The notes under the pieces were generated by a model, which had not been told where the DNA came from, did no database searches, and saw only the letters and a program-made list of their open reading frames with translations. Made by a program: the position numbers and the translations under genes. A stretch of 64,000 bases of DNA from Schizochytrium sp. TIO01 (taxonomy: Eukaryota; Sar; Bigyra; Thraustochytrida; Thraustochytriidae): contig SMSO01000004.1 in the NCBI GenBank assembly GCA_004764695.1, forward strand, positions 1,205,501 through 1,269,500, given 5' to 3'. This document shows, in pieces, positions 29,791 to 64,000 of this stretch (the first letter of the stretch is position 1; each line of letters opens with the position of its first letter).

Positions 29791-31974
29791 TCAGGTTAAG
29801 GTGCACATTGTCCATCTTTTGTGCATGCACCAGTACATACAGATCCAGCCTACAAAGCCTTCCTGCTGAGCACATGCACCTGCACTGCATGGGTCCTCAT
29901 TGCGGGAACTCTGGCAAACTTTCCAATCATCAGATGTGAAAGCATCCATTAACGAATTCCAAAGGTTGCACTTTTGTCTGACAAAACGCGTATTGAAACG
30001 ACCGCATCGTACACTTTCCTTAGGTTTCTTTGCTGGTCGAGCGGTTCGCAAAGGGGTTGGTGCTGGCGTGGGTGCGTCAGTAACGCAGATTCCATCGGTA
30101 GTACAGCTACCAGTGCACTCAGAACCAGTGAAATCGCATGTGAGACCATCGGCACAAGGCTCAAGGCATTCGTCAAGGCCCAAGCTAGCCTGATTTTGCA
30201 GAGTCAAAGTTTGAAATTTGTACGAATCCCTGTAAGTCTCGAGCATGCTGACAAAGCTTGAGATATCAGCTTCCGCAACCAAGTTATTCTCGGAGTTAAA
30301 ATTAAATGAAGTGATTTCACCCTTGCTATTGCACATGACGAGACCGTTTTGAAGAGGGCATTTCGCGCTGCCACAAGGGTTTATATAACGTGCATTATTA
30401 GTGGTAATGCCGCATCTGGTCCAGCGGGCACCGCCAAAGTTGTCTTGGAGTGCAACCCAAAGTTTGCAAGCTTGTGGATTGGTGGTTCCTGAGCAGGCAG
30501 CCTTGCTAGTAGGCGAAAACGTAGGGGCAGGCGTAGGTGCGTCAGTGACGCAGATTCCATCGGTAGTACAGCTACCAGTGCACTCAGAACCGGTGAAATC
30601 GCATGTGAGACCATCGGCACAAGGCTCAAGGCATTCGTCAAGGCCCAAGCTAGCCTGATTTTGCAGAGTCAAAGTTTGAAAATTGTACGAATCCCTGTAA
30701 GTCTCGAGCATGCTGACAAAGCTTGAGATATCAGCTTCCGCAATCAAGTTATTCTCGGAGTTGAAATTAAATGAAGTGATTTCATTATTGCTATTGCACG
30801 TGACGAGACCGTTTTGGACAGGGCATTTCGCGCTGCTACATGGGTTTATATAACGTGAATTAACAGCGTTAATGCCGCATTGGGTCCAGCTGGCACCTCC
30901 AAAGTTGTCTTGGAGCGCACTCCAAAGTTCGCAAGCTTTTGGGTAAGCGGTTGTTGAGCAGTCAGCGTTGCGAGTAGGAGCAGACGTAGGGGCAGGCGTA
31001 GGTGCGTCAGTGACACAGATTCCATCGGTAGTACAGCTACCAGCGCACTCAGAACCGGTGAAATCGCATGTGAGACCATCGGCACAAGGCTCAAGGCATT
31101 CGTCGAGGCCCAAGCTAGCCTGATTTTGCAGAGTCAAAGTTTGAAAATTGTACGAAGCCTTGTAAGTCTCGAGCATGCTGACAAAGCTTGAGATATCAGC
31201 TTCCGCAACCAAGTTATTCTCGGAGTCGAAATTAAATGAAGTAATTTGACGATTGCCATTGCACGTGAGGAGACCGTTTTGAACAGGGCACTTGGCGTTG
31301 CCACAAGGGTTTATATAACGTGAATTAACAGCGTTACTGCCGCATTGGGTCCAGCTGGCACCGCCAAAGTTGTCTTGGAGCGCATTCCAAAGTTCGCAAG
31401 TTTTGGGGTTAGCGGTTCCTGAGCAGGCAGTATTGTAAGTAGGAGCAGACGTAGGGGCGGGCGTAGGTGCGCTAGGGGCAGGCGTAGGTGCGTCAGTGAC
31501 ACAGATTCCATCGGTAGTACAGCTACCAGTGCACTCAGAACCAGTGAAATCGCATGTGAGACCATCGGCACAAGGCTCAAGGCATTCGTCAAGGCCCAAG
31601 CTAGCCTGATTTTGCAGAGTCAAAGTTTGAAAATTGTACGAAGCCTTGTAAGTCTCGAGCATGCTGACAAAGCTTGAGATATCAGCTTCCGCAACCAAGT
31701 TATTCTCGGAGTCGAAATTAAATGAAGTAATTTGACTATTGCCATTGCACGTGAGGAGACCGTTTTGAACAGGGCACTTGGCGTTGCCACAAGGGTTTAT
31801 ATAACGTGAATTAACAGCGTTACTGCCGCATTGGGTCCAGCTGGCACCGCCAAAGTTGTCTTGGAGCGCATTCCAAAGTTCGCAAGTTTTGGGGTAAGCG
31901 GTTCCTGAGCAGTCAGCCTTGCCTTCGTGAACAAGAAGTGCTAAAGTTGTTACTAAAAAAAGTAAGCGTGACAT
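29791..31974 (-). CDS. Secreted cysteine-rich protein, four tandem 155-aa repeats, frameshifted C-terminus
   Basis: This 727-residue protein begins with a clear signal peptide (about 1-20, SRLLFLVTTLALLVHEGKA). Four tandem repeats start at C22 and are joined by Thr/Pro-rich linkers (PTPAPT). Each repeat has CELW-ALQDNFGGASW-C, NPC, a C-x4-NGL--C segment, FVSMLETY, the near-invariant LTLQNQASLGLDECLEPCADGLTC, and GSCTTDGICV. The first half resembles the N-terminal cap of LRR proteins; this similarity is weak. A fifth, divergent repeat is cut short. After GFVG the frame shifts and reads 18 unrelated residues to a TGA. Comparison with the neighbouring paralogue shows why: a 209-bp deletion. Function is unknown; an extracellular or cell-wall adhesion role is guesswork. 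Confidence 0.85.
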   Translation of the reverse strand: MSRLLFLVTTLALLVHEGKADCSGTAYPKTCELWNALQDNFGGASWTQCGSNAVNSRYINPCGNAKCPVQNGLLTCNGNSQITSFNFDSENNLVAEADISSFVSMLETYKASYNFQTLTLQNQASLGLDECLEPCADGLTCDFTGSECTGSCTTDGICVTDAPTPAPSAPTPAPTSAPTYNTACSGTANPKTCELWNALQDNFGGASWTQCGSNAVNSRYINPCGNAKCPVQNGLLTCNGNRQITSFNFDSENNLVAEADISSFVSMLETYKASYNFQTLTLQNQASLGLDECLEPCADGLTCDFTGSECAGSCTTDGICVTDAPTPAPTSAPTRNADCSTTAYPKACELWSALQDNFGGASWTQCGINAVNSRYINPCSSAKCPVQNGLVTCNSNNEITSFNFNSENNLIAEADISSFVSMLETYRDSYNFQTLTLQNQASLGLDECLEPCADGLTCDFTGSECTGSCTTDGICVTDAPTPAPTFSPTSKAACSGTTNPQACKLWVALQDNFGGARWTRCGITTNNARYINPCGSAKCPLQNGLVMCNSKGEITSFNFNSENNLVAEADISSFVSMLETYRDSYKFQTLTLQNQASLGLDECLEPCADGLTCDFTGSECTGSCTTDGICVTDAPTPAPTPLRTARPAKKPKESVRCGRFNTRFVRQKCNLWNSLMDAFTSDDWKVCQSSRNEDPCSAGACAQQEGFVGWICMYWCMHKRWTMCTLT
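30031..31911 (-). repeat. Four in-frame coding repeats (486 + 3 x 465 bp)
   Basis: The units start at 31911, 31425, 30960 and 30495, reading leftward on the minus strand. The first is 21 bp longer because its linker has seven extra residues. Units 1 and 2 differ at only about three amino acids outside the linker, so one was copied from the other very recently. Units 3 and 4 are more diverged. Confidence 0.9.
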
Positions 31975-33941: not shown

Positions 33942-35378
33942 TTAAGGTGCACATTGTCCATCTTTTCTGCATGCACCAGTACATACAGATCCAGCCCTAA
34001 AGGCACAACTAATGGCTGAACACAAGCTAGGAAAGCATGTGTCGAGATCGAGCGAAGTCTGTCTGTTAATTGTCAGCCTCGTGAACAAGTCTGGGTTCGC
34101 TTCGAGCAAAGTTTCTTCGAAAGCAGTAACGTTAGTAAGAGGGTTCCATGTCAAACCAACGTCACGTACAAACTGGACTCTCGTGACGCGTCCAGCACTA
34201 CAACCTACAAAGCCTTGACGCCGAGCACATGCACCTGCACTGCATGGGTTCTCATTGCGGGAACTCTGGCAAACTTTCCAATCATCAGATGTGAAAGCAT
34301 CCATTAACGAATTCCAAAGTTTGCAGTTATTTCTGGCAAAGCGCGGCTTAAAACGATTGCATCCTAAACCTTCCGTAGGTTTCTTTGTTGGTCGAGCGGT
34401 TGGCAAAGGGGTTGGTGCTGGAGTAGGTGCGTCAGTGACGCAGATTCCATCAGTAGTACAGCTACCAGTGCACTCAGAACCAGTGAAATCGCATGTAAGA
34501 CCATCGGCACAAGGCGCAAGGCATTCGTCGAGGCCCAAGCTAGCCTGATTTTGCAGAGTCAAAGTTTGAAAATTGTACGAGTCCCTGTAAGTCTCGAGCA
34601 TGCTGACAAAGCTTGAGATATCAGCTCCCGCAACCAAGTTATTCTCGGAGTTGAAATTAAATGAAGTAATTTCATTATTGCCATTGCACGTGACGAGACC
34701 TTTTTGAACAGGGCACTTGGCGCTGCCACAAGGGTTTATAGACCGTGAATTAACAGCGTTAATGCCGCATTCGGTCCAGCTGGCACCGCCAAAGTTGTCT
34801 TGGAGCGCACTCCAAAGTTCGCAAGCTTTTGGGTAAGCGGTTCCTGAGCAGTCAGCCTTGCGAGTAGGAGCAGACGTAGGGGCAGGCGTAGGTGCGTCAG
34901 TGACACAGATTCCATCGGTAGTACAGCTACCAGTGCACTCAGAACCAGTGAAATCGCATGTGAGACCATCGGCACAAGGCTCAAGGCATTCGTCAAGGCC
35001 CAAGCTAGCCTGATTTTGCAGAGTCAAAGTTTGAAAATTGTACGAATCCCTGTAAGTCTCAAGCATGCTGACGAAGCTGGAGATATCAGCTTCCGCAACC
35101 AAGTTATTATCGGAGCCGAAATTAAATGAAGTAATTTGACTATTGCCATTGCACGTGACGAGACCGTTTTGAAAAGGGCACTTTTGAGGGCCACAAGGGT
35201 TTATATAACGTGAATTAGTAGCGGAAGTGCCGCATGCGGTCCAGCTGGCACCGCCAAAGTTGTCTTGGAGCGCACTCCAAAGTTCGCAAGCTAGTGGGTA
35301 AACGGTTCCTGAGCAGTCAGCCTTGCCTTCGTGAACGAAAAGTGCTAAAGTTGTTACTAAAAAAAGTAAGCGTGACAT
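33942..35378 (-). CDS. Secreted cysteine-rich protein, two full repeats plus intact divergent terminal repeat
   Basis: This 478-residue paralogue of the neighbouring 727-residue protein has the same signal peptide (about 1-20). Two 155-residue repeats begin at nucleotides 35315 and 34850. After a Pro/Thr/Lys linker, a third, divergent repeat begins near CNRFKPRF. It keeps the cysteine framework (CKLWNSLMDAF, NPCSAGAC, LTINRQTSLDLDTC, GSVCTGACRKDGQC) and ends in a normal stop. The protein therefore shows what the family's complete C-terminus looks like. It is probably secreted or on the cell surface. No enzyme motif is seen. Transcription is leftward and its upstream region is shared with the other copy. 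Confidence 0.85.
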   Translation of the reverse strand: MSRLLFLVTTLALFVHEGKADCSGTVYPLACELWSALQDNFGGASWTACGTSATNSRYINPCGPQKCPFQNGLVTCNGNSQITSFNFGSDNNLVAEADISSFVSMLETYRDSYNFQTLTLQNQASLGLDECLEPCADGLTCDFTGSECTGSCTTDGICVTDAPTPAPTSAPTRKADCSGTAYPKACELWSALQDNFGGASWTECGINAVNSRSINPCGSAKCPVQKGLVTCNGNNEITSFNFNSENNLVAGADISSFVSMLETYRDSYNFQTLTLQNQASLGLDECLAPCADGLTCDFTGSECTGSCTTDGICVTDAPTPAPTPLPTARPTKKPTEGLGCNRFKPRFARNNCKLWNSLMDAFTSDDWKVCQSSRNENPCSAGACARRQGFVGCSAGRVTRVQFVRDVGLTWNPLTNVTAFEETLLEANPDLFTRLTINRQTSLDLDTCFPSLCSAISCAFRAGSVCTGACRKDGQCAP

Positions 35379-43414: not shown

Positions 43415-45712
43415 TTACGGGGATGAAGAGCAGACTAAGTCTGCGAGCTCAGGGAGGGATTTTTCAGACGGGCCTCCAATAAAGTTAGAGTGGACTCTAA
43501 CGCGGAAATGGTCAGGAACATTGTCGATCATGTTGAAGTTGAAGATTGGTGCTGGCTTTGTGGCGGCTGCAATGAAAGCGAGATTGGTGATCTGTACAGC
43601 AAAAGAGGTTCCGACAAAAACGAAGGCATCAGCCTGGCGAAACCATTTCTTCGCCTTTTTGAACTGGTAAGAATCATGATCAGTGTAATCCTCGTCAAAA
43701 AGAAGGCAGTTTGGGGCAAGGATTTGCGAGCACTCTGGACATTTAGGCAAGTCCTCTGTCGCACGAATTTCGGGCCTAGCGCCCTCCGGTCGGTGAATAC
43801 GATCACCAAGTTTTGCATAGTGCACTTGTTCTTTCTGGTAGATGCAATCATCTGTGTAACACTTATAGCCACCGGAGTATCCGTGAATCTCGATCAACTG
43901 ATCATCGTCAATCTTGCCTACAGTGTGTCGGTGCAAACGGTCAATGTTTTGGGTGATTAAATGAGCACTTTCCGGATAGTTTGCGCAGATGCGGGCAAGA
44001 GCAGCGTGTCCGGGGTTAGGAAAGTAGTTCACCGCCTTGCCTTCGTCAAAGTGACGTAGCCAGAAGGTATTGTACCAGGCAAGAGGGTTTTCTTCGAACT
44101 TCTCACGCGTGCCCCAGGTGTATACACTTTCCTCCCACACGGCATCATCCTGACCACGAAAGGGTGGGATACCACTTGCAACGGAAAGACCTGCACCAGT
44201 GATAAAGACAACGTGTTTGCCTTCAAGGATGAGACGTGCAAGCTTTGCCATCGGTGGCTCGCTTTCAGCTTCAAGGGTTTGGCTTTGGCCACGTTTAGGA
44301 CGACTGCGGCTGAATTCTGACATACGTTTGGGTTGCTTCCACTTCGCACGCAGACGGCGAGTTGCCTCGCGCTTCTTTGCGCGCATACGAGCTACAACTT
44401 TTTCCTCGTCGGTCATTTCTTCAAAGTTATCTTCATCATCATCGTACTGGCGATCCTCGCTACCAGTACCATTGGCACTGCCGGCATCTTGATCCCCAGA
44501 GTCATCTTCATCGTCATTAGCCTTGGCATCATCATTCCTGACCTGTGTTTTGTCCTCTTTTTCGGCTTTGACTCCTTCATTTTGCGACTTGTTTTCGGAC
44601 CCTGTCGCACGTGGTTGTGCACTCTCAATAGATGCTGTTTTATCATTCATTGATGTGGGTGCGGGTGCTGGTGCTGGTGCTGATTCAGGCGCAGAATCAG
44701 GTGCAGGCATGACGGGAATTGCAGTTGCGGTGGTGGAAGCAATTGCTAGCGCGGGGACAGGCTCTAGCGTTGGAGTAGGGCCATTCGAAGAGGAAGGGAT
44801 GGGTTCCTCATTCTTGACGATCTCCATTTTCTCTTCTACCTTCGGGGCATTATCTGAGGCAGATGCTGTCGTCGGAACGGCAATCGTTGTAGATGACTGC
44901 TCCTCAGCGGCTTGTTTGGCCTTTAGGGTCTCCAAGAGAGCTTTAGTGGCGTTAATTCCCTCAAGTTGTTGTTGCTGCATGCGCTCGAAGGCTGCAAAAA
45001 CAGATTCTTCCTCAGGATTGGAGTTGAGGTTAGACTGCTGTCCAAAGTTGCTGGAGAGCGATGGTTGCATGGTAAATGAGGGTTCCTGCTTCAGGATTGC
45101 ACTCGCAGCTTGCCCAATATGTGGTTGTTCCGCCAAACTTTGAATTGTCTCAGGTTTCAGAAGGCCGGCTAGTGGAAAACCTTGAGGTTGTTGGTGCAGT
45201 TGCTGTTGCTGTAAGTGCTGCAAATGCTGCAATGAAAAGGATCCATTGCCAAACAGAGCGTCTGCAAGTGATGCTTGGAGCTGTTGTTGTTGGAGTTGTT
45301 GCTCCTGCTGTTGGCTAATACCGTTCTGAAATAAGAGCTGGCGCTGCAACACTTCTTGTTCTGAAGTGGTACCTGAGCCTGACATGTTAACGAGGCCGTT
45401 GAGAAAAGAAAGATTACTCTCTCGCTGCAAAGACATGTTTTTCTGCTGTTGCTCTTGTTGCTCCTGTTCTCTTTGATGATGCTGTTGGACCGCCTGTCTC
45501 TGGGCTTGCTGGAGCAAGCTTGTCAGAGGCTGTTGTTGTTGTTGTTGTTGTTGCTGTTGTTGCTGTTGTTGCTGCTGCTGCTGCTGCGGCTGACTATCCT
45601 GACCATCTACACCATGCTGCTGCTGCTGATATTTCTGCAGAAGGTACAAATGGGCTGCCTTCGTAGCCGCTTCAATCGCAGCAGGGTCCAAGTTCAAATT
45701 ACTTGCGTCCAT
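43415..45712 (-). CDS. Sir2-family NAD-dependent protein deacylase with long Gln-rich N-terminus
   Basis: This 765-residue protein starts at an ATG. The C-terminal 290 residues are a sirtuin domain. NAD-binding GAGLS begins at G506, GIPPFRG follows, and QNIDRLH starts at Q588. The catalytic His is H610 in EIHGYSG, and the later NAD-site motif GTSFAVQ is present. The zinc site is unusual: the first pair is C-x4-C (KCYTDDC) and the second C-x2-C (CPEC), not two C-x2-C pairs. The usual FGE segment is replaced by LLFDEDY. The first 430 residues are low-complexity: a polyglutamine run near residues 42-61, further Q-rich blocks, Ala/Pro repeats and an acidic block. A basic stretch (about 435-470) may be a nuclear signal. 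A nuclear chromatin role is likely but inferred. Confidence 0.92.
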   Translation of the reverse strand: MDASNLNLDPAAIEAATKAAHLYLLQKYQQQQHGVDGQDSQPQQQQQQQQQQQQQQQQQQQPLTSLLQQAQRQAVQQHHQREQEQQEQQQKNMSLQRESNLSFLNGLVNMSGSGTTSEQEVLQRQLLFQNGISQQQEQQLQQQQLQASLADALFGNGSFSLQHLQHLQQQQLHQQPQGFPLAGLLKPETIQSLAEQPHIGQAASAILKQEPSFTMQPSLSSNFGQQSNLNSNPEEESVFAAFERMQQQQLEGINATKALLETLKAKQAAEEQSSTTIAVPTTASASDNAPKVEEKMEIVKNEEPIPSSSNGPTPTLEPVPALAIASTTATAIPVMPAPDSAPESAPAPAPAPTSMNDKTASIESAQPRATGSENKSQNEGVKAEKEDKTQVRNDDAKANDDEDDSGDQDAGSANGTGSEDRQYDDDEDNFEEMTDEEKVVARMRAKKREATRRLRAKWKQPKRMSEFSRSRPKRGQSQTLEAESEPPMAKLARLILEGKHVVFITGAGLSVASGIPPFRGQDDAVWEESVYTWGTREKFEENPLAWYNTFWLRHFDEGKAVNYFPNPGHAALARICANYPESAHLITQNIDRLHRHTVGKIDDDQLIEIHGYSGGYKCYTDDCIYQKEQVHYAKLGDRIHRPEGARPEIRATEDLPKCPECSQILAPNCLLFDEDYTDHDSYQFKKAKKWFRQADAFVFVGTSFAVQITNLAFIAAATKPAPIFNFNMIDNVPDHFRVRVHSNFIGGPSEKSLPELADLVCSSSP
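45530..45587 (-). repeat. CAG/CAA polyglutamine tract
   Basis: A mixed CAG/CAA run of about 19-20 codons encodes consecutive glutamines near the sirtuin N-terminus. The mixture of codons would slow slippage compared with a pure CAG run. Confidence 0.9.
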
Positions 45713-54425: not shown

Positions 54426-57400
54426 CTATTCCGTGCCCTTTCCTGTTTGATGCTGCAAGCTGTATGAGTTTACAAAGTCCTGAAAACGAACTGTTCCAGA
54501 ACCACTCTTATCGTGCTTACGAATCCATTGGTAAAGTTCAGTGTCTGCGACATGTGATCGGCCCATCTCGTTGAAGGCAGCACGCAAGCTTAAAAATCGG
54601 ATAGCTCCATCTCGACCCCCGCCATACCGACAGAATGCGCGCCATAGTGCACGAAGCTTTTCGGTTTGCATAGACTGACGCAAATTCTTGGGTAAGAAAT
54701 TTCTGATAGCCTCATCAAACGATATTTGAGGACCGCTGCGTTGCGGGTTTAAGAGTTTGGGTGGCTGACGTGATGCAGCATGGAGCATCTTCTTTACCCC
54801 CGCTTCATCCTTCCCTTTCTGTGGTTGAGATGGAGATGCAATAAAAGATTCGTGTATCAGGGGTTGTGAACTTTTCACGAGTTGAACCAAATGCTGTGCT
54901 TGGATCCAATCAATTGATCCAGTAGACTCTCCAGTTTGAAGGGTTACCCAACCCTCTACTTCTGTTCGTGTGCATAACTTTTCGCTGTCTCCGCTCAGTG
55001 CTAAGCACTCCACTAAAAATGCATACACGCGGTTAGATCCGCTCAGCAAATTAGTTGTATCACTATAGGAAGAAAAGATGCTACGATATGCTTCTGCAAG
55101 ATTTACTACCTGATGCAAATCTTCGTAACTCTCCATATTAAGCCTTTCGTGACCTTGATCATATTGACTTCTCTGATGACCACCCTTTGTCTCCTGTAAA
55201 GCCTCTACAAGAAGTCGAAAGTCTTGCTTGGAGAATAAAGTTGTCACCGCCAAGCCTAGCGAACGGGCAAGTGTCTCCACTTCTCCATTCAATACTGCCC
55301 TCATTCCTGGGAGTGAACTTAGCGCGGCCTGAGCCTGACTTGCTGTGAGCTCACCGTGCCCACCAGCATCAAATCTATCAAATGTACCATCAGCAAAATC
55401 ATGCAACCTTCCCATAGCTTGCCTTGAGATGCTTGCAGAACTGCCAGTACTGGTTCCTCTCCTCAACTTATCCTTCACAGATGTAATTTCTCCTTCGGTT
55501 CCTACCTTACTACTTGAGAGAATTTGAATATTTCGTTTGAAAAATTCTAGATGCTTGGAATAGAATAGACAAAACTCCTCGAAATTAAGCTGTCCTATCC
55601 GATGGGATTGTCTCAATGCTTCTGCAGCTGCACGACGGATGCTAGCATCACCATGCAAAGAATTGATCAAGTTTTGCATCTCTACTTTGCCAAGGTTGTC
55701 ACCCCCTTGGCGTTGCTTGAACTTTCTTTTACCTTCTAATTGTGCCTGAAAAAGGGTTCTTGCATCTACGATATCATCCCCGAGTTGGTCCATCCAAGCT
55801 GACCCAGATGAAACATGAGCTGCCGACAACAGGCGCTCTTGTGGACTTCGCAAAGGAGCGTGCCCATGCGTTGCTGCTGCTGCGACATTGGTATAATGTA
55901 ATTCTTGATCTAAAGCAGAAACGCTGTTATCACAGACTTTCAGTTCATTTGAATAAACCCCATTTGACTTTGACTCATTTTCCTCATTGTAACTCCATAC
56001 TGTTTTTCCTCTAACAGAAGAAGATTGTCCAGTCAGCTCAGAAAATAGTGTTGATGATACAGAGCTGTCATTTTTGATAATTTCAAGAAGTTGACAATCT
56101 TGCGTAGAAAGCAAAGCAGTTAACACAAGGCGAGCTTGCCTCTCTTCACGAGTCATTGCTAAGGTATCCTTTCCGATAGGACATCTGTTTGTAAGCTTCG
56201 TAGCTTCACGTGCGACAACTCCATGACTTTTCACATGCGCTACAAATTCAGCCTTGAGAGCCGACAAGATGTCAAGTCTCTTACATAAAACTTGAATTAA
56301 ATACACAGCATCTGTGCGCAAAGCCATAGACCCATTCCAAGTTGCACCGAGAGTTTGTTGAAGACGAAGCTGATGTGATTTGGCACATAACACAGTTGTA
56401 TCGTTCAGACACTCTACCAAAATATATTCAATAACCCCAGAGCGCACAAGGTCATCTTGCAGCATTGAGGATCGTGAGCATGCCCCGATGAGGCTGTACC
56501 ATGCTTGGCGCAAGCTAGTACTTCGTTGGGGCCAAGTACTTAAGATGTCTTGGTACCGATCTGCGTCCCCATTGTTTCTGGCTTCGTGCAAAATAATAGC
56601 ATTAGTTCGCAAATATGTCAGGAAAAGCTCAGCCAAATTGGATGATAGCCGTAGTCCACCGAGGGCAGCTTGCAAAAGCTCGTCATTTCCAGTGAAACCA
56701 CAAAATAAAAAGTCTACAGCCTGGGTTTGAAAATCTAATACTTCGAAACTAGCATTAGCAAGATCGACGAAATCCTCTGAAATGATTTTTGCCATCACAG
56801 AAAAGCAACCAGATTCCTCAAGCAACTTCGAAGCTTTGCCTGGCCTGAGGGCTGGATTTTCAGAAAATATCATTTGATAGGCAAGTGAGAGGGCTATGCA
56901 CAGAACTGGAATCCTTTCTTGGGCTAGTGCAGGACTATCAAGAGAAGCTTCCCAAAAATTGACAGTCCAAACCTCAAACACAACCTTGAGTAGTTCAATA
57001 TATAGATCATCAAGATGGCGTGCTCCAACATAATCAGTGCTCACAGCAACACGCACCCTTACCAAGAGCTGAGTGACCTCTTTCACTAGACTTGCATCCC
57101 TTGCTTCTACTAATAGCCGCCCCAACTGCGTATCTGCGCCCGAGGGGTCCACAATTGCAATATTTGGCACTTCAATGCTAAATTCATCGTGTACTAGCGA
57201 GACAAGGGTAGGGTAAGAATGAAATAGACACATCAATGTTCGAGTTCCGTATGATGCGATAGAAGCACACATCGAAGCTGCTAAGGCGCAACGTGACTTT
57301 CGTAAAACATGCAGTAAAGCTGGGAAAACATCACAACTTTGCCAAGCAGCCGTCATGGTATCGCCAGCCTTTACATGAGTTTCTAAAATTTGAAGGGCCA

Positions 57401-60400
57401 GGTTGCGCGCTTTCTCATTCTCACCTAAGACATGTTGGACCAACATCGCAACACATGATACTGATGCAAAGGCACATGCCATTTCGCGCTGACCATTCCA
57501 GAGTATAGAATTACCTTGACTATTCGCATGATGCGCGCGCAGTCCTAAATGATGAAAGGAATTCAGCTTTGTTGTGCTTTCAAGAAGCGCTTTTGCGCAT
57601 TCCATTGCTAATTGACTCAGATCGTCGTCTTCGTCTCCAATCATGCTTGCTACTTGCTCTGCTACACACATATCTATGCACAGTAAGATGTGTCCAGTAT
57701 CTGTGGAACGAAGAAGTGAAAGGATTTGGCGTCCGGCAACAAACCTAGAACGAGACTTACGCTGGGTTGAGATCATTTGAGATAAACAGTGTCCAAGATT
57801 AAGCACCTCGCTATAGTATGTATGCGAACGGCAGAACACTGCAGTTGACGATTGGTTATCTACACGATTTTGATCTTCTTCATCTTCCCATGTTCCATGC
57901 TTACTGATGTATTCGCGGATCCCATGGTAGCGTGGATTTCCCCCGCCTTCTTCTGTAACAATTTGACGAATGAGAGGAGATACTAGACGCTCCAACTCAG
58001 GTGTCCAATGATTTGCACAGTCATTTCGGACGTTTGAAGAATTAAACGGAAATAGAGAGTTCTCTTCACCGCAATAAAGACACATCATAGAATGTAAAAG
58101 CGCACCAATATGGTTTGCCATAGGTAGAGATCCAGCATTTGTTAAAGTGGTTTTGCCGAATTCTGACGCGATCGTTTGAAAAGCAAACACTACACGCTGC
58201 ATGATCCTCACTCGTATTGGATCATCAGAATTGCCTTCAACAAAACCGAGATTTGTCAGACCACGGCCAGTCGTATCTGCCACGCCTCCACTGGAGAAGA
58301 AACGCAAAGAAAGTTTAACAATCGTCTGTAGAGCACCCATTCCAACTACCTCGTCACAAAGTGTTGGAAGTTTGGAGCCTACTTCCTCATCAGCCGTGGT
58401 ATTTGCAGGAGCACAGCAGCACTCCACAACAGCGTCAATTGCGTCTAAAAGCAACCGAGGATCAACTGCACCATTTCCCCATGGTTCTGCATCTCGTGAA
58501 TACGACTGTACAAGTAAAATATCCAAAGGCACTCTCACGCCCTCAGTAATATTCTTCGATATGCAAATTTGACCCACCCATTGCTTTGCAGCTTCTGAGG
58601 CTTGATGAAATGAATGTTCATCCATGTTTGCACAAACTATATCAAATGCACTTTCTGGTGTAATTCGTTTTGCAGGATCTGCTGAGAGAAATTGCATGGC
58701 AAGATCTATTACTGAGAATTTTCCTGTTTTGGAACCGGTTGCGTTGCATCCAAAGTAGCTTCCAAACTTAGCTGCGTTGGAAATAGCTATCAGTTCTGCC
58801 AGACTTCGGGTCTCATCAGCATTTGATTGTTCCTTTCGCTCCAAGTTCCTTGTCGCATCTGGAAATCCTTCAGCTGGACACAGCTGCAACTCGCCACGAG
58901 GACCAAGTACAAATGGTCCTTGCAAGGCGCTCTGACGTTTTGTCGTTGTAAGGCTCAGCTCAAAACAACCGTACGGGAAAGTCTTGCCACTTGCAGATGG
59001 CGGCCGCCCAGAGAGTAACTCCATAAGTAAACAACCGAGGCAATAAACATCATAGGACGCTGTTGGCCTTTGCCCTTCTTTGGTATCCTCGACTGGGTTA
59101 TAATCATATTCTTCTGGAGACAAAACCTCGCCAAGATCAGGGCCAGAAAGCATGGAGCCACGCAACTCGTCCTCCATAGAAAGTACTCCTGCAGTGGCAA
59201 AAGAAGCCAGGCGTAAGAACCTTCCACATGGCGACACAAGAATTTGTCGAGGCCGTGGACCACGTAAAATAACCCCTTTAGAATGCACTTTTTGCAAAAT
59301 GATTAAGAGTTGACAGACCCACAATTGCAAAAGGTGTACTGCAAACTCACCACCTAAATAACCATGTGCATCCAGACACTCGCGTAAGGTTCTCCAGCCA
59401 GGTAAGGCTCCTAATACAACATGTCGCGAGTTGGCCTTCTTTAGTTCTTCCGTGACGTCATTTGATTCTGTGGGTCGTACATTATCTATGACAATAGGGG
59501 CAATGTTGTCTTCTCCAAATAGTCGATACATTGCAACCTCGCGCTCCAGATGAGCTTCATAAGGTTGACCATCATAATTCTGAATTCGATCAAGTTTTTC
59601 GGCACTTACAACATTTACAAGAAGGTCTACATAACTCTCAGCAGATTGCATGTTGCGGAACCATCCCCGTGATCTATGAACTAGGCGTTGGGGCATGTTT
59701 AAAAAGGATAGTGAACTCTGTTCATTACTATCAATTCGATACGATACTGTAGCCTTTGATTGAAGTGCGGATAAAATTTTGGACTCATAAAATGCAGAGA
59801 CCTTTGATATTTCTTTCATGAGCGACCAGTCAGATACATTTGAAACAGTAACCTCTCGATCCTCTTCACTTTGGTGAACAATATCATCTGAGGCAGAAAG
59901 CTTGTCATTGATCAATCGAATTGCGTGGTTTTTGAGGCCATTTGAAAGGCTGATGAGACTGTTTTTACAGTTATTCACCTCCTTTTCGCATGTGTGTGCA
60001 GCAACCAAACTTGCTAATTCGTGTAATTTAGAGGAAGCACATGGATGGCCTGCTGAATATTTCTGACCCATCTCCCTTGCCTGGGCCATGGCATCCCGCA
60101 CTGACCAAAATGGGTCAACTCGGCTCGTAAGCATTGAAAATGTAGCTTCAGTAAAGCCAAATATCGTTTCGTCGGATTGGTAGCTTATATGTAACTTCTT
60201 GCACATATTGTGAATCCAATCTGGAGGATAGGCGTCACGTTCTAAAAAGTTGACCTTGGCAAGGACATCAAAGGCTTCTGCTGAGGTCAAAACTTTGCTA
60301 CGCGCCTCGTCAACGCAATATAGCAGCGTTTGTAGCGTCACAGTGGTTCGTTTTCCTCCACGAGTTAATTTCGCTGTAAAATCACTGAGAGTACTTCCGA

Positions 60401-63400
60401 GCCCATAGCGAAGCCCCAGCGTTGTAACTTCATCTCCACTTGCGAGATCGCATTGAATTGCCTCAACCAAATCTTCAGTAGAGCAAGTTGGCCCGCGAGC
60501 AACGCGAGCGAATAGTTCTTGAAAGCTGGTCAACATCAATGAGCGACACTCTCCCCATCTGGTTGGTAGGCAACAAGCTAAACGAAATGCTTTAGCAACG
60601 AGCCCCTGGGCATCTAGTTTCTCCGCTGCACTCAGCGAGCTCTCACGAAGATAAGCACCAATTTGAATAAGTAAACTAGTCTCTATTTCCTGCAGCGAGG
60701 TTTGTTGCAAACTGTTAAGTGTTGATTGTGCTCGGATACTTTGATGAGCCATTGCTCTCCAGCGCGACCTTGCCTTCAAAGCTTCGAGTCGGTGTTCACT
60801 CGAAACATATTGCGCAATGTCTCGAGCAGGGGTCATTATATTGATACGGTCAACCGACCATACTGCAACACCCATGCCGCCATCTGGCTTAATAAATAGC
60901 GCAGAGAGTAGCTCAATCACCTTGGAAGGTGATGAGCTCATTCCAGCACTAATATGTTGCAGAGAGTGAGAGCCCAGGTGTTGCTTGCTCACATCGTCAT
61001 TATCACCAATTTGATGAAGACGTACTTGTTCTCCGCTTCGCAAGTCTCGAGATTGAGCAGAATCTGAGAGTGGCTCTAGCATATGCCTAGGCAGTTTTAA
61101 AAGTCCACGCTGAGCATCATAGGCAACCTCGTACACAGATTTATTGATCCGCCTGGTTATAACACCTACTTGGTCCGCTACACAATCAAGGGACGTAGAA
61201 CGAGGATTCACTACAACATTATCGACACCGTCCCCTACCTGGTAGAATGGATAGATATAAACATGTGGACTTTCTAGAGCTCTTGACATTGACTCGAGAT
61301 CAAGCAATGCAAGACCTCCGCGCTCTAGCGAAGCTCTTACCTCGAGCACATTCCGAGCCTCAATAGAGACAAAATAAATGACCCGCAAAACCTCTCCACG
61401 TCGGCGATAGATCTCTCTCAAATTATCTGTTCCAGACTGCCAGCCTCCAACATGCGTCATAGCGCCAGCCATACCAAACAAGGCACGATCTTGAAGCTGA
61501 ACCATACGTTCATCAAAGCCTTCAGAAGGAACTACAATGACCTGGCCAGTAGTGAGAACATAGGCAAATCCTTGGAGAAGGTGATCATCACGAGCAAGAC
61601 CTTCTTTAAGTCGAATATCCGTGCGCCTAGCTGCCTCTGCTTGACCTAAATTCACAATGAAAGGTACATTCATATTCCTTGTTACAGAAGCAAAGTAGAC
61701 AGGAGCTAGCTGAGAGACCACAGCCGCATGAGGTACTTGAATTGAATGGACACATGCGTAAGCTTCGCTGGTTTGTGCGAATTCAGCCCCATACTCAGGA
61801 CTAAGCTCTGCGTACGCAGGGTGAGTCAATCGAAATCGACGTGCAAGAGGGTCCACTAGGTACAGGATACCATCAGCAGCAGCAGCACACACTAAACCAG
61901 CTTCGCGAAGGTACACTATTGAAGTGACTGTGGGATTTGCATTCGTCTTGACAGGTAATGATGTTGTGTAACGAGCACTAAGAACTCTTACAGTTCCCTT
62001 GCTGGATTGCATAATTGAAGGAGTCTTGAATTTATGGGTAGCAATCGCGCCAGAGAGCTCACGGAGAGAAACTTGCCCATCCTTATTTACATCAAGATAG
62101 TCATGAACTCGTGCAACATCTTCAGCATGCAGCCTCAGTTGGAGTTTGTGCAGCATGATGTTTCGAAGTTCATCAAGGGAAACTACACCATCTCCATTTT
62201 CATCAAGCTGATCAAAAAGAGTGCTTATGTCTACATATTTTGCGGGTAATGGAATCTCAACATGATCTCCCACTGCAACCTTTTCCAATGTGGGTGGTAA
62301 CTGTATTTCTGACCACGCCTCGCCAGTTGATTTTACTAGAACATCAGCATAACCCACTTGAGAAGGATATAGACGTGAAATAATAACCTCGATGGTACGA
62401 TGCCCAAGTACAATTACTTCACTCCCTATTTGAAAGTGATTCTCCAAATTTTTGCTCGCTGGAGAAATAACCCTCAATCTCTCAAAAAGAACATCAAGTT
62501 CTGAGCCACCTAGCGTATCCATATAGCGCACATTTACTGCGGTCGAAGAAACTGCAATAATTTTTGCACGGCGGCCAAGTTCTTCATTATCATCAATAGT
62601 AGCTTTAAATGCTAGCGCTGTGCGAAATTTAGAAAGCAATTTCTGTAAACTTCGTGAGCTGGAGTCGTTGTAAACTTGCCTCCACCGCATTTGCTCTGCT
62701 AAATCCCAAAAGTGAATTTGACCGTGACTATCTCCTGCAACAAGGAATTCTGCTTCAGAAACATACAATAGTCGTGGTGGCGTCAAAGGCATTTCTCCAG
62801 CTGACACGATTGCAATTGCATGCCCATATCTTGCACATAACACTTGGACGCTTGTGGATCCATTTGAAACAGAACAGAAAACCGTATCCCATCGAGAAGA
62901 ATACAAAGCCACCTCAATTGTGGCTTCAGTGAGAGCCTCGTCGCGGTTGAGGGGCAAAAGCTGCACATCACGAAGCACTCGAAGGCTTAGAGAGTCAAGC
63001 AAACGGAACCGGCCATCGATTGCGGCAGTACACACGCAGACAAGCGAGGAGAGTTTGTCGAATTGTAGAATACTCATTGTTCTTGCTCCAGAAGCTATGG
63101 CATGTCGCACCTTAGAGTCTTGTGGAAGCACAGCTGTGCATGCAAGTTGCCGGGTAGCGTTCATTGTCCAGGATTCCAAGTTGCCGTTGACAAAGAGAAT
63201 AAAAAGATGCTGAAGCTCTTCATCACATACAACTTCATACGCTCTTGCTTGATCAACATGTCCAATGGTATGTTCTTGTTCAGTAACTCCCCAGAACAAA
63301 TTAGAGCGTCCTGTGCTTGACTGGTCAGCAGTCAAAGGAATTTGCACGCACGCTGCAACATCAGCCCACACTATGCTTGATGTTCCTAGTCGCTGTGCAC

Positions 63401-63965
63401 TAAATCTATGAAGTCGAGTCTCTAGAGTTTCCATCGGTCCGTTCACATTTGATTCGCATAATGGAAAGTGCATGAGTTCCGCGAGTGCTGGATCGTCAAA
63501 ACAAGCCTGAATAAAAGTTGATTTAGTCACCAAATTAGAAGCTTGTTCTCCTAGTAATCCTTGATGGACTCGTCGGAGATTGCTTCTTACGCAGTTAATA
63601 ATGCCAAGCCCGCCATGTGCTGAAGCAATAAGTGGGTTGTGCACTGTACTAACAGTTCGACGAGCCAAGATTGCTCGGAGACGACAAAATTCTGCAAAGC
63701 TTATCAACCTCTGATCTGACCAAGCAGAGCTTCCATAGAAATCCCCCCTTTCGGTACTAAAATCTGTCGCTCTTACCGGAGCATCAGGCCAACCTTTGCA
63801 AGAGGGTCTAATTCCATCCATACTTTGACATGCTGCGAGCCATTCTTGAAAATTAAGCCGGCCATCTGCATCAGCGTCAAAGAGCGAAAATGATATGTGA
63901 ATCTCACGCATATCTTCGTCGCTCATACTCGCTGCCCATGCTTCCTCTCTGCAACGAGACACCAT
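54426..63965 (-). CDS. Giant EF-hand / beta-propeller / pseudokinase / helical-repeat protein (5' end possibly beyond window)
   Basis: The frame is open to the window edge. The first ATG inside is at 63965, giving 3179 residues, but the true start may lie outside. An EF-hand loop (D30, D32, D34, E41) opens the protein. A WD-repeat-like propeller covers about 200-480 (AGDSHGQIHFWDL), and two EF-hands lie at about 580-650 (DENGDGVVSLDE, DVNKDGQVSLRE). A protein-kinase fold spans about 1425-1740 but is catalytically dead: the beta3 Lys is N1451, the HRD Asp is G1569, the catalytic-loop Asn is Q1574 and the DFG Asp is S1588. SPEEY and the helix-F Asp (SYDVYCLGCLL) are kept. ARM/HEAT-like helices cover about 1800-2650. 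C-terminal EF-like units end with a good loop, DKSGSGTVRFQD. Pseudokinase plus ARM repeats recalls ULK4 and Fused; a ciliary scaffold is inference. Confidence 0.85.
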   Translation of the reverse strand: MVSRCREEAWAASMSDEDMREIHISFSLFDADADGRLNFQEWLAACQSMDGIRPSCKGWPDAPVRATDFSTERGDFYGSSAWSDQRLISFAEFCRLRAILARRTVSTVHNPLIASAHGGLGIINCVRSNLRRVHQGLLGEQASNLVTKSTFIQACFDDPALAELMHFPLCESNVNGPMETLETRLHRFSAQRLGTSSIVWADVAACVQIPLTADQSSTGRSNLFWGVTEQEHTIGHVDQARAYEVVCDEELQHLFILFVNGNLESWTMNATRQLACTAVLPQDSKVRHAIASGARTMSILQFDKLSSLVCVCTAAIDGRFRLLDSLSLRVLRDVQLLPLNRDEALTEATIEVALYSSRWDTVFCSVSNGSTSVQVLCARYGHAIAIVSAGEMPLTPPRLLYVSEAEFLVAGDSHGQIHFWDLAEQMRWRQVYNDSSSRSLQKLLSKFRTALAFKATIDDNEELGRRAKIIAVSSTAVNVRYMDTLGGSELDVLFERLRVISPASKNLENHFQIGSEVIVLGHRTIEVIISRLYPSQVGYADVLVKSTGEAWSEIQLPPTLEKVAVGDHVEIPLPAKYVDISTLFDQLDENGDGVVSLDELRNIMLHKLQLRLHAEDVARVHDYLDVNKDGQVSLRELSGAIATHKFKTPSIMQSSKGTVRVLSARYTTSLPVKTNANPTVTSIVYLREAGLVCAAAADGILYLVDPLARRFRLTHPAYAELSPEYGAEFAQTSEAYACVHSIQVPHAAVVSQLAPVYFASVTRNMNVPFIVNLGQAEAARRTDIRLKEGLARDDHLLQGFAYVLTTGQVIVVPSEGFDERMVQLQDRALFGMAGAMTHVGGWQSGTDNLREIYRRRGEVLRVIYFVSIEARNVLEVRASLERGGLALLDLESMSRALESPHVYIYPFYQVGDGVDNVVVNPRSTSLDCVADQVGVITRRINKSVYEVAYDAQRGLLKLPRHMLEPLSDSAQSRDLRSGEQVRLHQIGDNDDVSKQHLGSHSLQHISAGMSSSPSKVIELLSALFIKPDGGMGVAVWSVDRINIMTPARDIAQYVSSEHRLEALKARSRWRAMAHQSIRAQSTLNSLQQTSLQEIETSLLIQIGAYLRESSLSAAEKLDAQGLVAKAFRLACCLPTRWGECRSLMLTSFQELFARVARGPTCSTEDLVEAIQCDLASGDEVTTLGLRYGLGSTLSDFTAKLTRGGKRTTVTLQTLLYCVDEARSKVLTSAEAFDVLAKVNFLERDAYPPDWIHNMCKKLHISYQSDETIFGFTEATFSMLTSRVDPFWSVRDAMAQAREMGQKYSAGHPCASSKLHELASLVAAHTCEKEVNNCKNSLISLSNGLKNHAIRLINDKLSASDDIVHQSEEDREVTVSNVSDWSLMKEISKVSAFYESKILSALQSKATVSYRIDSNEQSSLSFLNMPQRLVHRSRGWFRNMQSAESYVDLLVNVVSAEKLDRIQNYDGQPYEAHLEREVAMYRLFGEDNIAPIVIDNVRPTESNDVTEELKKANSRHVVLGALPGWRTLRECLDAHGYLGGEFAVHLLQLWVCQLLIILQKVHSKGVILRGPRPRQILVSPCGRFLRLASFATAGVLSMEDELRGSMLSGPDLGEVLSPEEYDYNPVEDTKEGQRPTASYDVYCLGCLLMELLSGRPPSASGKTFPYGCFELSLTTTKRQSALQGPFVLGPRGELQLCPAEGFPDATRNLERKEQSNADETRSLAELIAISNAAKFGSYFGCNATGSKTGKFSVIDLAMQFLSADPAKRITPESAFDIVCANMDEHSFHQASEAAKQWVGQICISKNITEGVRVPLDILLVQSYSRDAEPWGNGAVDPRLLLDAIDAVVECCCAPANTTADEEVGSKLPTLCDEVVGMGALQTIVKLSLRFFSSGGVADTTGRGLTNLGFVEGNSDDPIRVRIMQRVVFAFQTIASEFGKTTLTNAGSLPMANHIGALLHSMMCLYCGEENSLFPFNSSNVRNDCANHWTPELERLVSPLIRQIVTEEGGGNPRYHGIREYISKHGTWEDEEDQNRVDNQSSTAVFCRSHTYYSEVLNLGHCLSQMISTQRKSRSRFVAGRQILSLLRSTDTGHILLCIDMCVAEQVASMIGDEDDDLSQLAMECAKALLESTTKLNSFHHLGLRAHHANSQGNSILWNGQREMACAFASVSCVAMLVQHVLGENEKARNLALQILETHVKAGDTMTAAWQSCDVFPALLHVLRKSRCALAASMCASIASYGTRTLMCLFHSYPTLVSLVHDEFSIEVPNIAIVDPSGADTQLGRLLVEARDASLVKEVTQLLVRVRVAVSTDYVGARHLDDLYIELLKVVFEVWTVNFWEASLDSPALAQERIPVLCIALSLAYQMIFSENPALRPGKASKLLEESGCFSVMAKIISEDFVDLANASFEVLDFQTQAVDFLFCGFTGNDELLQAALGGLRLSSNLAELFLTYLRTNAIILHEARNNGDADRYQDILSTWPQRSTSLRQAWYSLIGACSRSSMLQDDLVRSGVIEYILVECLNDTTVLCAKSHQLRLQQTLGATWNGSMALRTDAVYLIQVLCKRLDILSALKAEFVAHVKSHGVVAREATKLTNRCPIGKDTLAMTREERQARLVLTALLSTQDCQLLEIIKNDSSVSSTLFSELTGQSSSVRGKTVWSYNEENESKSNGVYSNELKVCDNSVSALDQELHYTNVAAAATHGHAPLRSPQERLLSAAHVSSGSAWMDQLGDDIVDARTLFQAQLEGKRKFKQRQGGDNLGKVEMQNLINSLHGDASIRRAAAEALRQSHRIGQLNFEEFCLFYSKHLEFFKRNIQILSSSKVGTEGEITSVKDKLRRGTSTGSSASISRQAMGRLHDFADGTFDRFDAGGHGELTASQAQAALSSLPGMRAVLNGEVETLARSLGLAVTTLFSKQDFRLLVEALQETKGGHQRSQYDQGHERLNMESYEDLHQVVNLAEAYRSIFSSYSDTTNLLSGSNRVYAFLVECLALSGDSEKLCTRTEVEGWVTLQTGESTGSIDWIQAQHLVQLVKSSQPLIHESFIASPSQPQKGKDEAGVKKMLHAASRQPPKLLNPQRSGPQISFDEAIRNFLPKNLRQSMQTEKLRALWRAFCRYGGGRDGAIRFLSLRAAFNEMGRSHVADTELYQWIRKHDKSGSGTVRFQDFVNSYSLQHQTGKGTE

Positions 63966-64000
63966 AGACCACCATGTAGATGTAGCCCGAAGTTGCGCTG

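Follow-up and report, generated by a model that had tools for sequence, protein, structure and literature searches.

At the edge of the DNA analysed here a very long open frame joins EF-hands to a kinase-like domain whose catalytic residues are largely replaced, and the question is what kind of protein such a gene encodes. The stretch, referred to throughout as the window, comprises 64 000 nucleotides (C3:1205501-1269500) of a genome of 64.06 Mb in 37 contigs. Positions within the window are given as plain numbers and positions outside it by contig. The first-pass annotation had proposed an intronless giant scaffold at 54426-63965 on the minus strand, in which a degenerate pseudokinase lies between calcium-binding and ARM/HEAT-like regions.

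Extent and continuity of the gene

An open frame of 3179 residues is present at 54426-63965 on the minus strand as annotated, and the residue numbers used below (N1451, G1569 and others) are those of this frame. Its extent had been misjudged: the window edge cuts the gene, the start ATG of the 3179-residue reading is internal and the open frame reaches C3:1271751, giving 3941 codons (the downstream frame) and not 3179.

54426..64000, minus strand: 3' part of what is most likely one giant gene; the frame runs past the window end

Directly upstream, on the same strand, another 3228 codons lie open in a different frame (C3:1281268-1271585; the upstream frame); this frame overlaps the downstream frame by 167 bases. 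Codon usage was scored along both frames after training on 10,097 codons taken from the window genes and the bodies of the two giant frames. Preference lay with the upstream frame as far as ∼C3:1271650 and with the downstream frame from ∼C3:1271600 onwards, and no non-coding gap intervened. One of the 39 steps (C3:1271520-1271461) was an exception, in which the third frame scored slightly higher than the downstream frame. Because codon usage crosses between the frames without a gap, they most likely form a single gene with a frame change; its length, taking the first Met in the upstream frame as the start, is ∼7,080 codons. The description as intronless fails as written, since the frame switches between the two halves of the gene. 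Many GT-AG pairs at the junction are able to restore the frame, and a very short intron or a one-base shift arising from a sequence or assembly error is possible. Longer introns were disfavoured, as they would cut out sequence that scores as coding.

Kinase-like domain

58596..59693, minus strand: pseudokinase domain, residues 1425-1790 (the piece tested), from Pfam, solved-structure and same-genome kinase profile matches

The HMM comparison of the kinase region that the first-pass annotation had proposed was carried out with residues 1425-1790. Against Pfam Pkinase this 366-residue piece scored 27.5 bits (E 2.5e-6), which falls short of the curated cut-off of 31.7; the match covers only positions 95-257 of the 263 in the profile. 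PDK1 was the top solved-structure match by sequence (E 1.9e-6; 60 of 394 matches listed). A profile of 30 kinases from the same genome, cut out of the 132 Pkinase matches listed for it, was aligned with the domain by hhalign (Prob 97.7, E 1.8e-12); the alignment runs from the alpha-C region through helix F (59567-58992, minus strand). When 36 windows spanning both frames were compared in the same way, only those overlapping the domain scored (Prob 97.7, 95.6 and 36.3); no window outside it exceeded Prob 1.22, and the highest value among 40 shuffles was 1.86. Judged by these profile comparisons, the kinase-like domain is real. It is absent from that list of 132 Pkinase matches (127 of 468 candidates scored), and a protein search of the same genome found five other places that match weakly (E 4.6e-6 to 7.8e-4) and no close paralogue. 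A single-sequence structure model of the domain, the other kind of evidence by which the annotation had said its claim could fail, had a mean pLDDT of 34.7, too low in confidence to be informative or to serve for a fold search.

The catalytic positions were assigned from 40 resampled alignments of 18 kinases each, using three query cuts and scoring a position only where the template motif was recognisable.

59613..59615, minus strand: N1451, probable VAIK Lys position (resampled alignments)
59259..59261, minus strand: G1569 at the HRD Asp position (33 of 33 scorable resamplings, same in three query cuts)
59244..59246, minus strand: Q1574 at the catalytic-loop Asn position (33 of 33 scorable resamplings, same in three query cuts)
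59202..59204, minus strand: S1588 at the DFG Asp position, sequence SFA (38 of 38 scorable resamplings, same in three query cuts)

The residue numbers annotated for these positions proved exact. All four had been described as replaced; for the HRD Asp, the loop Asn and the DFG Asp the sequence alignments make replacement firm, and for the VAIK Lys its loss to N1451 is probable. The latter position fell on N1451 in 24, 25 and 11 of 37 resamplings for the three query cuts, the main alternatives being E1456 (7, 7 and 11) and K1457 (1, 0 and 9). The annotation had named as evidence against its claim a profile alignment that finds the motif residues intact at other positions. In the resampled alignments this did not occur for HRD and DFG; for VAIK alone was a Lys, K1457, aligned in some resamplings. 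The alpha-C, SPE and helix-F motifs survive.

EF-hands

63843..63878, minus strand: EF-hand loop, residues 30-41 (loop pattern)
C3:1269717-1269682, minus strand: EF loop outside the window, codons 679-690 of the downstream frame (loop pattern)
62052..62228, minus strand: EF-hand pair with two canonical loops, residues 588 and 625 (Pfam and loop pattern)
55311..55382, minus strand: EF-hand, residues ∼2862-2885 (loop pattern and Pfam)
54462..54641, minus strand: C-terminal EF-hand pair, residues 3109-3168 (Pfam)

Canonical loop ligands are accompanied by profile matches over the cut-off, which lie in the N-terminal half of the downstream frame and near its C-terminus. The loop pattern occurs four times in the upstream frame and seven times in the downstream frame (shuffle means 0.87 and 0.65, maximum 4 each); one of the seven, at residue 1028, is probably due to chance. 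The loops are scattered across ∼4,600 codons. The annotated EF-hands are real, but their placement at both ends does not hold as it had been stated: the N-terminal part of the gene carries a C2 domain and Tudor repeats.

Propeller-like and helical regions

62586..63410, minus strand: weak WD40/beta-propeller-like stretch, residues 186-460 (four sub-threshold Pfam matches)
56046..58595, minus strand: region called ARM/HEAT-like (single-sequence model all helical, mean pLDDT 40.9; no family match)

For the propeller said to precede the kinase, the support found is sub-threshold and confined to residues 186-460, where all four Pfam families listed are propellers (E 0.008-0.16, far under the cut-off). 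The best of these matches (E 0.008) reached 16.1 bits against a cut-off of 80. None of the other pre-kinase pieces scanned gave such support: residues 641-1140 matched no Pfam family in the pieces scanned and residues 1141-1424 no propeller family. A whole-genome WD40 scan gave 744 candidates; 150 of them were scored, and no scored place lay in this gene.

The label ARM/HEAT-like is without sequence support. Neither family was matched in the Pfam scans of the gene, and a whole-genome Arm scan placed none of its 70 listed matches here (150 of 268 candidates scored). Ordinary ARM repeats after the kinase were dropped for want of any profile match; the helical prediction in this region fits many folds.

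C2, Tudor and PUB modules

Outside the window the gene carries further modules. A C2 domain in the upstream frame scored 33.6 bits against a cut-off of 22 when a 150-residue piece was scanned; a scan of the entire 2423-residue piece, with matches listed to E 1, did not show it. Tudor_5 matched the same frame in 19 stretches (E 2.2e-96), and EF-hand pairs and two PUB domains are also present in it. The Tudor array contains a recent tandem duplication at C3:1278115-1276688 (upstream-frame codons 1052-1527): ten consecutive 60-base steps are 97-100% identical, the next two are 47% and 28% identical, and identity over the 714-base block is 89.6%.

PUB was matched by Pfam in both frames (E 4.8e-19 upstream and 6.4e-17 downstream), and a whole-genome PUB scan placed three matches over the cut-off in this gene. 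The clear PUB of the downstream frame also matched the PNGase PUB (E 6.4e-8). At the start of the downstream frame there is a possible degenerate PUB (Prob 10.5; 60 shuffles gave at most 1.37), for which Pfam gave no match. The genome as a whole is rich in PUB domains: there are 14 matches, and in 12 cases the PUB stands alone in its open frame.

The passages of PMC6995525 drawn on here give YxxN(x)9Y, together with an Asn that binds the carboxylate, as the pocket that receives the p97 tail, and state that mutation of PNGase Arg55 in this pocket abolishes binding. In the clear downstream PUB the core reads YxxN(x)9F, Phe taking the place of the second Tyr; the carboxylate Asn is present, and the residue equivalent to Arg55 is Asn. 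On these residues it largely keeps a candidate p97-tail pocket. The YxxN(x)9[Y/F] core was found in three of the 12 PUB places cut out of the 14 genome matches, this one included. In the two upstream PUBs the Tyr/Asn/Tyr core is lost; each has Arg at the position of Arg55, and the carboxylate Asn is kept in one and replaced by Asp in the other. This Asp stands, by our own reading, at the position of the HOIP cornerstone residue, for which the passages of PMC4017264 drawn on here report that an Asn-to-Asp change abolished OTULIN binding.

Other observations in the window and the genome

Several further features were recorded during the scans. PfaA-type polyunsaturated fatty acid synthases are known in thraustochytrids, and a match of this type exceeds its cut-off in this genome (1157 bits with its neighbours in frame, cut-off 1010), as would be expected of such an organism. 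A 5651-codon open frame at C3:857186-871321 matches the PfaA synthase model partially at several places and has the appearance of a large polyketide-synthase-like gene. Within the window, the neighbouring frames 29791-31974 and 33942-35378 (minus strand) contain tandem cysteine-rich units of ∼150 residues with PTPAPT-type linkers and a signal-peptide-like start; the former gave no Pfam match over the cut-off. The frame 43415-45712 (minus strand) encodes a protein of the Sir2 family whose long N-terminal part is rich in glutamine. Kinase matches at C9:109514 and C33:3536035 agree in score, frame length and extent, as do those at C14:87084 and C31:41403; such pairs suggest that the assembly includes haplotype or duplicate contigs.

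Discussion

The locus is best read as coding for a catalytically dead scaffold that responds to calcium and may be linked to Cdc48/p97. It would be encoded by a single gene of ∼7,080 codons in a thraustochytrid-like protist. The chain would begin with a C2 domain, ∼19 Tudor-type repeats, an EF-hand pair, two PUB domains and another EF-hand pair; continue with the possible degenerate PUB, the pocket-keeping PUB, EF-hands and a weak beta-propeller followed by an EF-hand pair; and end with the pseudokinase, a helical region and EF-hands. In such a protein the C2 domain and Tudor array may anchor the chain to membrane, or to methylated or other partners, and calcium on the EF-hands may alter the spacing or exposure of modules. 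The pocket-bearing PUB may recruit Cdc48/p97 or another protein with a similar tail, and the kinase fold would serve as a binding surface and carry out no phosphotransfer. This whole explanation, one scaffold gene with its modules and the roles proposed for them, is placed slightly on the probable side of even. The first-pass annotation was right in placing a pseudokinase within an EF-hand-rich multi-domain chain, but the domain order that it gave covers only the C-terminal half. Of the calcium-responsive scaffold with a kinase fold kept for binding, the pseudokinase and the EF-hands are supported; the calcium response and the binding role we infer.

In a more specific form of the proposal, calcium would be coupled to Cdc48/p97: the EF-hands would gate access of the PUB to the p97 tail, and the Tudor array, the propeller-like part and the dead kinase would hold clients, making the protein a calcium-controlled remodelling platform. 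This form is considered unlikely, with a small chance of being right; among the matches listed from the open-licence literature nothing like such a platform was found.

That the two frames are two adjacent genes, one with C2, Tudor, EF-hand and PUB modules and the other with PUB, EF-hands and the pseudokinase, would agree with the difference in frame and with the stop that ends the upstream frame. The 167-base overlap, however, leaves no space for an intergenic region, codon usage is handed over directly from one frame to the other and the possible degenerate PUB, itself a weak match, starts right after the junction, so that two genes are regarded as quite improbable. The frame change could also be the sign of an inactivated gene. 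A gene in decay, whose function is lost, would account for halves in different frames, for the degenerate kinase and for the two PUB domains without a pocket; it fits poorly with uninterrupted frames of 3941 and 3228 codons, with canonical ligands kept in the EF loops and with coding-type codon usage on either side of the junction, which a short intron or an assembly error suffices to explain. Decay is accordingly rated very improbable.

Two other readings were weighed. Activity has been argued for some kinases that lack single canonical residues, and an atypical kinase that is active through other residues would draw on the retained alpha-C, SPE and helix-F motifs and on the VAIK Lys position, which is not fixed and falls on K1457 in nine of 37 resamplings for one of the three query cuts. 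Against this, no scorable alignment leaves the catalytic Asp or either metal-binding residue in place, and activity is held to be highly improbable. A ciliary or basal-body scaffold, in which calcium tunes zoospore flagella, would have a role like that of ULK4/STK36 or of EF-hand/WD40 axonemal proteins. The genome holds a Radial_spoke gene and thus at least one motile-cilium gene. According to the passages of PMC10565251 drawn on here, Fused/STK36-type kinases bear ARM or HEAT domains, and a ciliary function is reported both for them and for their pseudokinase paralogue ULK4. The likeness to these proteins lies in a kinase or pseudokinase fold; in STK36/Fused an ARM or HEAT region is attached to it, and in the present gene the pseudokinase is followed by a region predicted, with low confidence, to be helical. 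The domain order differs, however: the kinase-like domain is not N-terminal but lies ∼5,300 codons from the gene start, with more than 2,000 codons ahead of it in the same frame and more in the upstream frame, and it is accompanied by C2, Tudor, PUB and EF-hand modules. The helical region shows no ARM/HEAT match in either type of scan, and ULK4 is absent among the 60 listed of 394 solved-structure matches to the kinase domain. A ciliary role is therefore given a low, though not negligible, probability.

The proposed scaffold shares single features with several other known systems; its order of domains is not that of ULK4/STK36, STK31 or the EF-hand kinases. STK31 has a Tudor domain N-terminal to a kinase-like domain without the catalytic Asp (PMC2754085), as is found here; it has one Tudor, the present gene 19 Tudor_5 stretches, and the passages of that paper drawn on here name no EF-hand, C2 or PUB for STK31. 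The p97 adaptors PNGase and UBXD1 contain PUB domains, and the downstream PUB resembles them in its match to the PNGase PUB and in keeping YxxN(x)9F and the carboxylate Asn. It differs in having Asn as the Arg55 equivalent and Phe for the second Tyr; the PUBs here are part of a giant scaffold, and the upstream two are without the pocket. CDPKs and the oomycete kinase PITG_08008 likewise join EF-hands and a kinase fold in one chain (PMC3019232). In the passages of that source drawn on here neither Tudor nor PUB domains are named for any EF-hand kinase, and none of these kinases is called inactive, whereas the kinase here is degenerate and the EF loops are spread over ∼4,600 codons. Protist calpains carry C2, EF-hand or PUB modules in an unrelated family, as far as the passages of PMC3563603 drawn on here describe them; Pfam scans of the present gene found no calpain domain.

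Searches for homologues gave no confirmed match in collections of genome contigs (366- and 3179-residue queries), viral contigs (1790 and 762 residues) and plasmids (1790 residues); these collections are not meant for eukaryotes and have no bearing on the spread of the gene. The domain combination is not described among the matches listed from the open-licence literature, a body that mostly leaves out subscription journals.

The case illustrates that what is found at a window edge may be no more than a portion of the gene. Pseudokinase scaffolds have been described before, as have Tudor proteins and PUB adaptors, and the protein looks like an unusual scaffold made of known parts. If it is expressed as one protein, it would offer a protist example in which the control of a p97-type adaptor by calcium could be tested.
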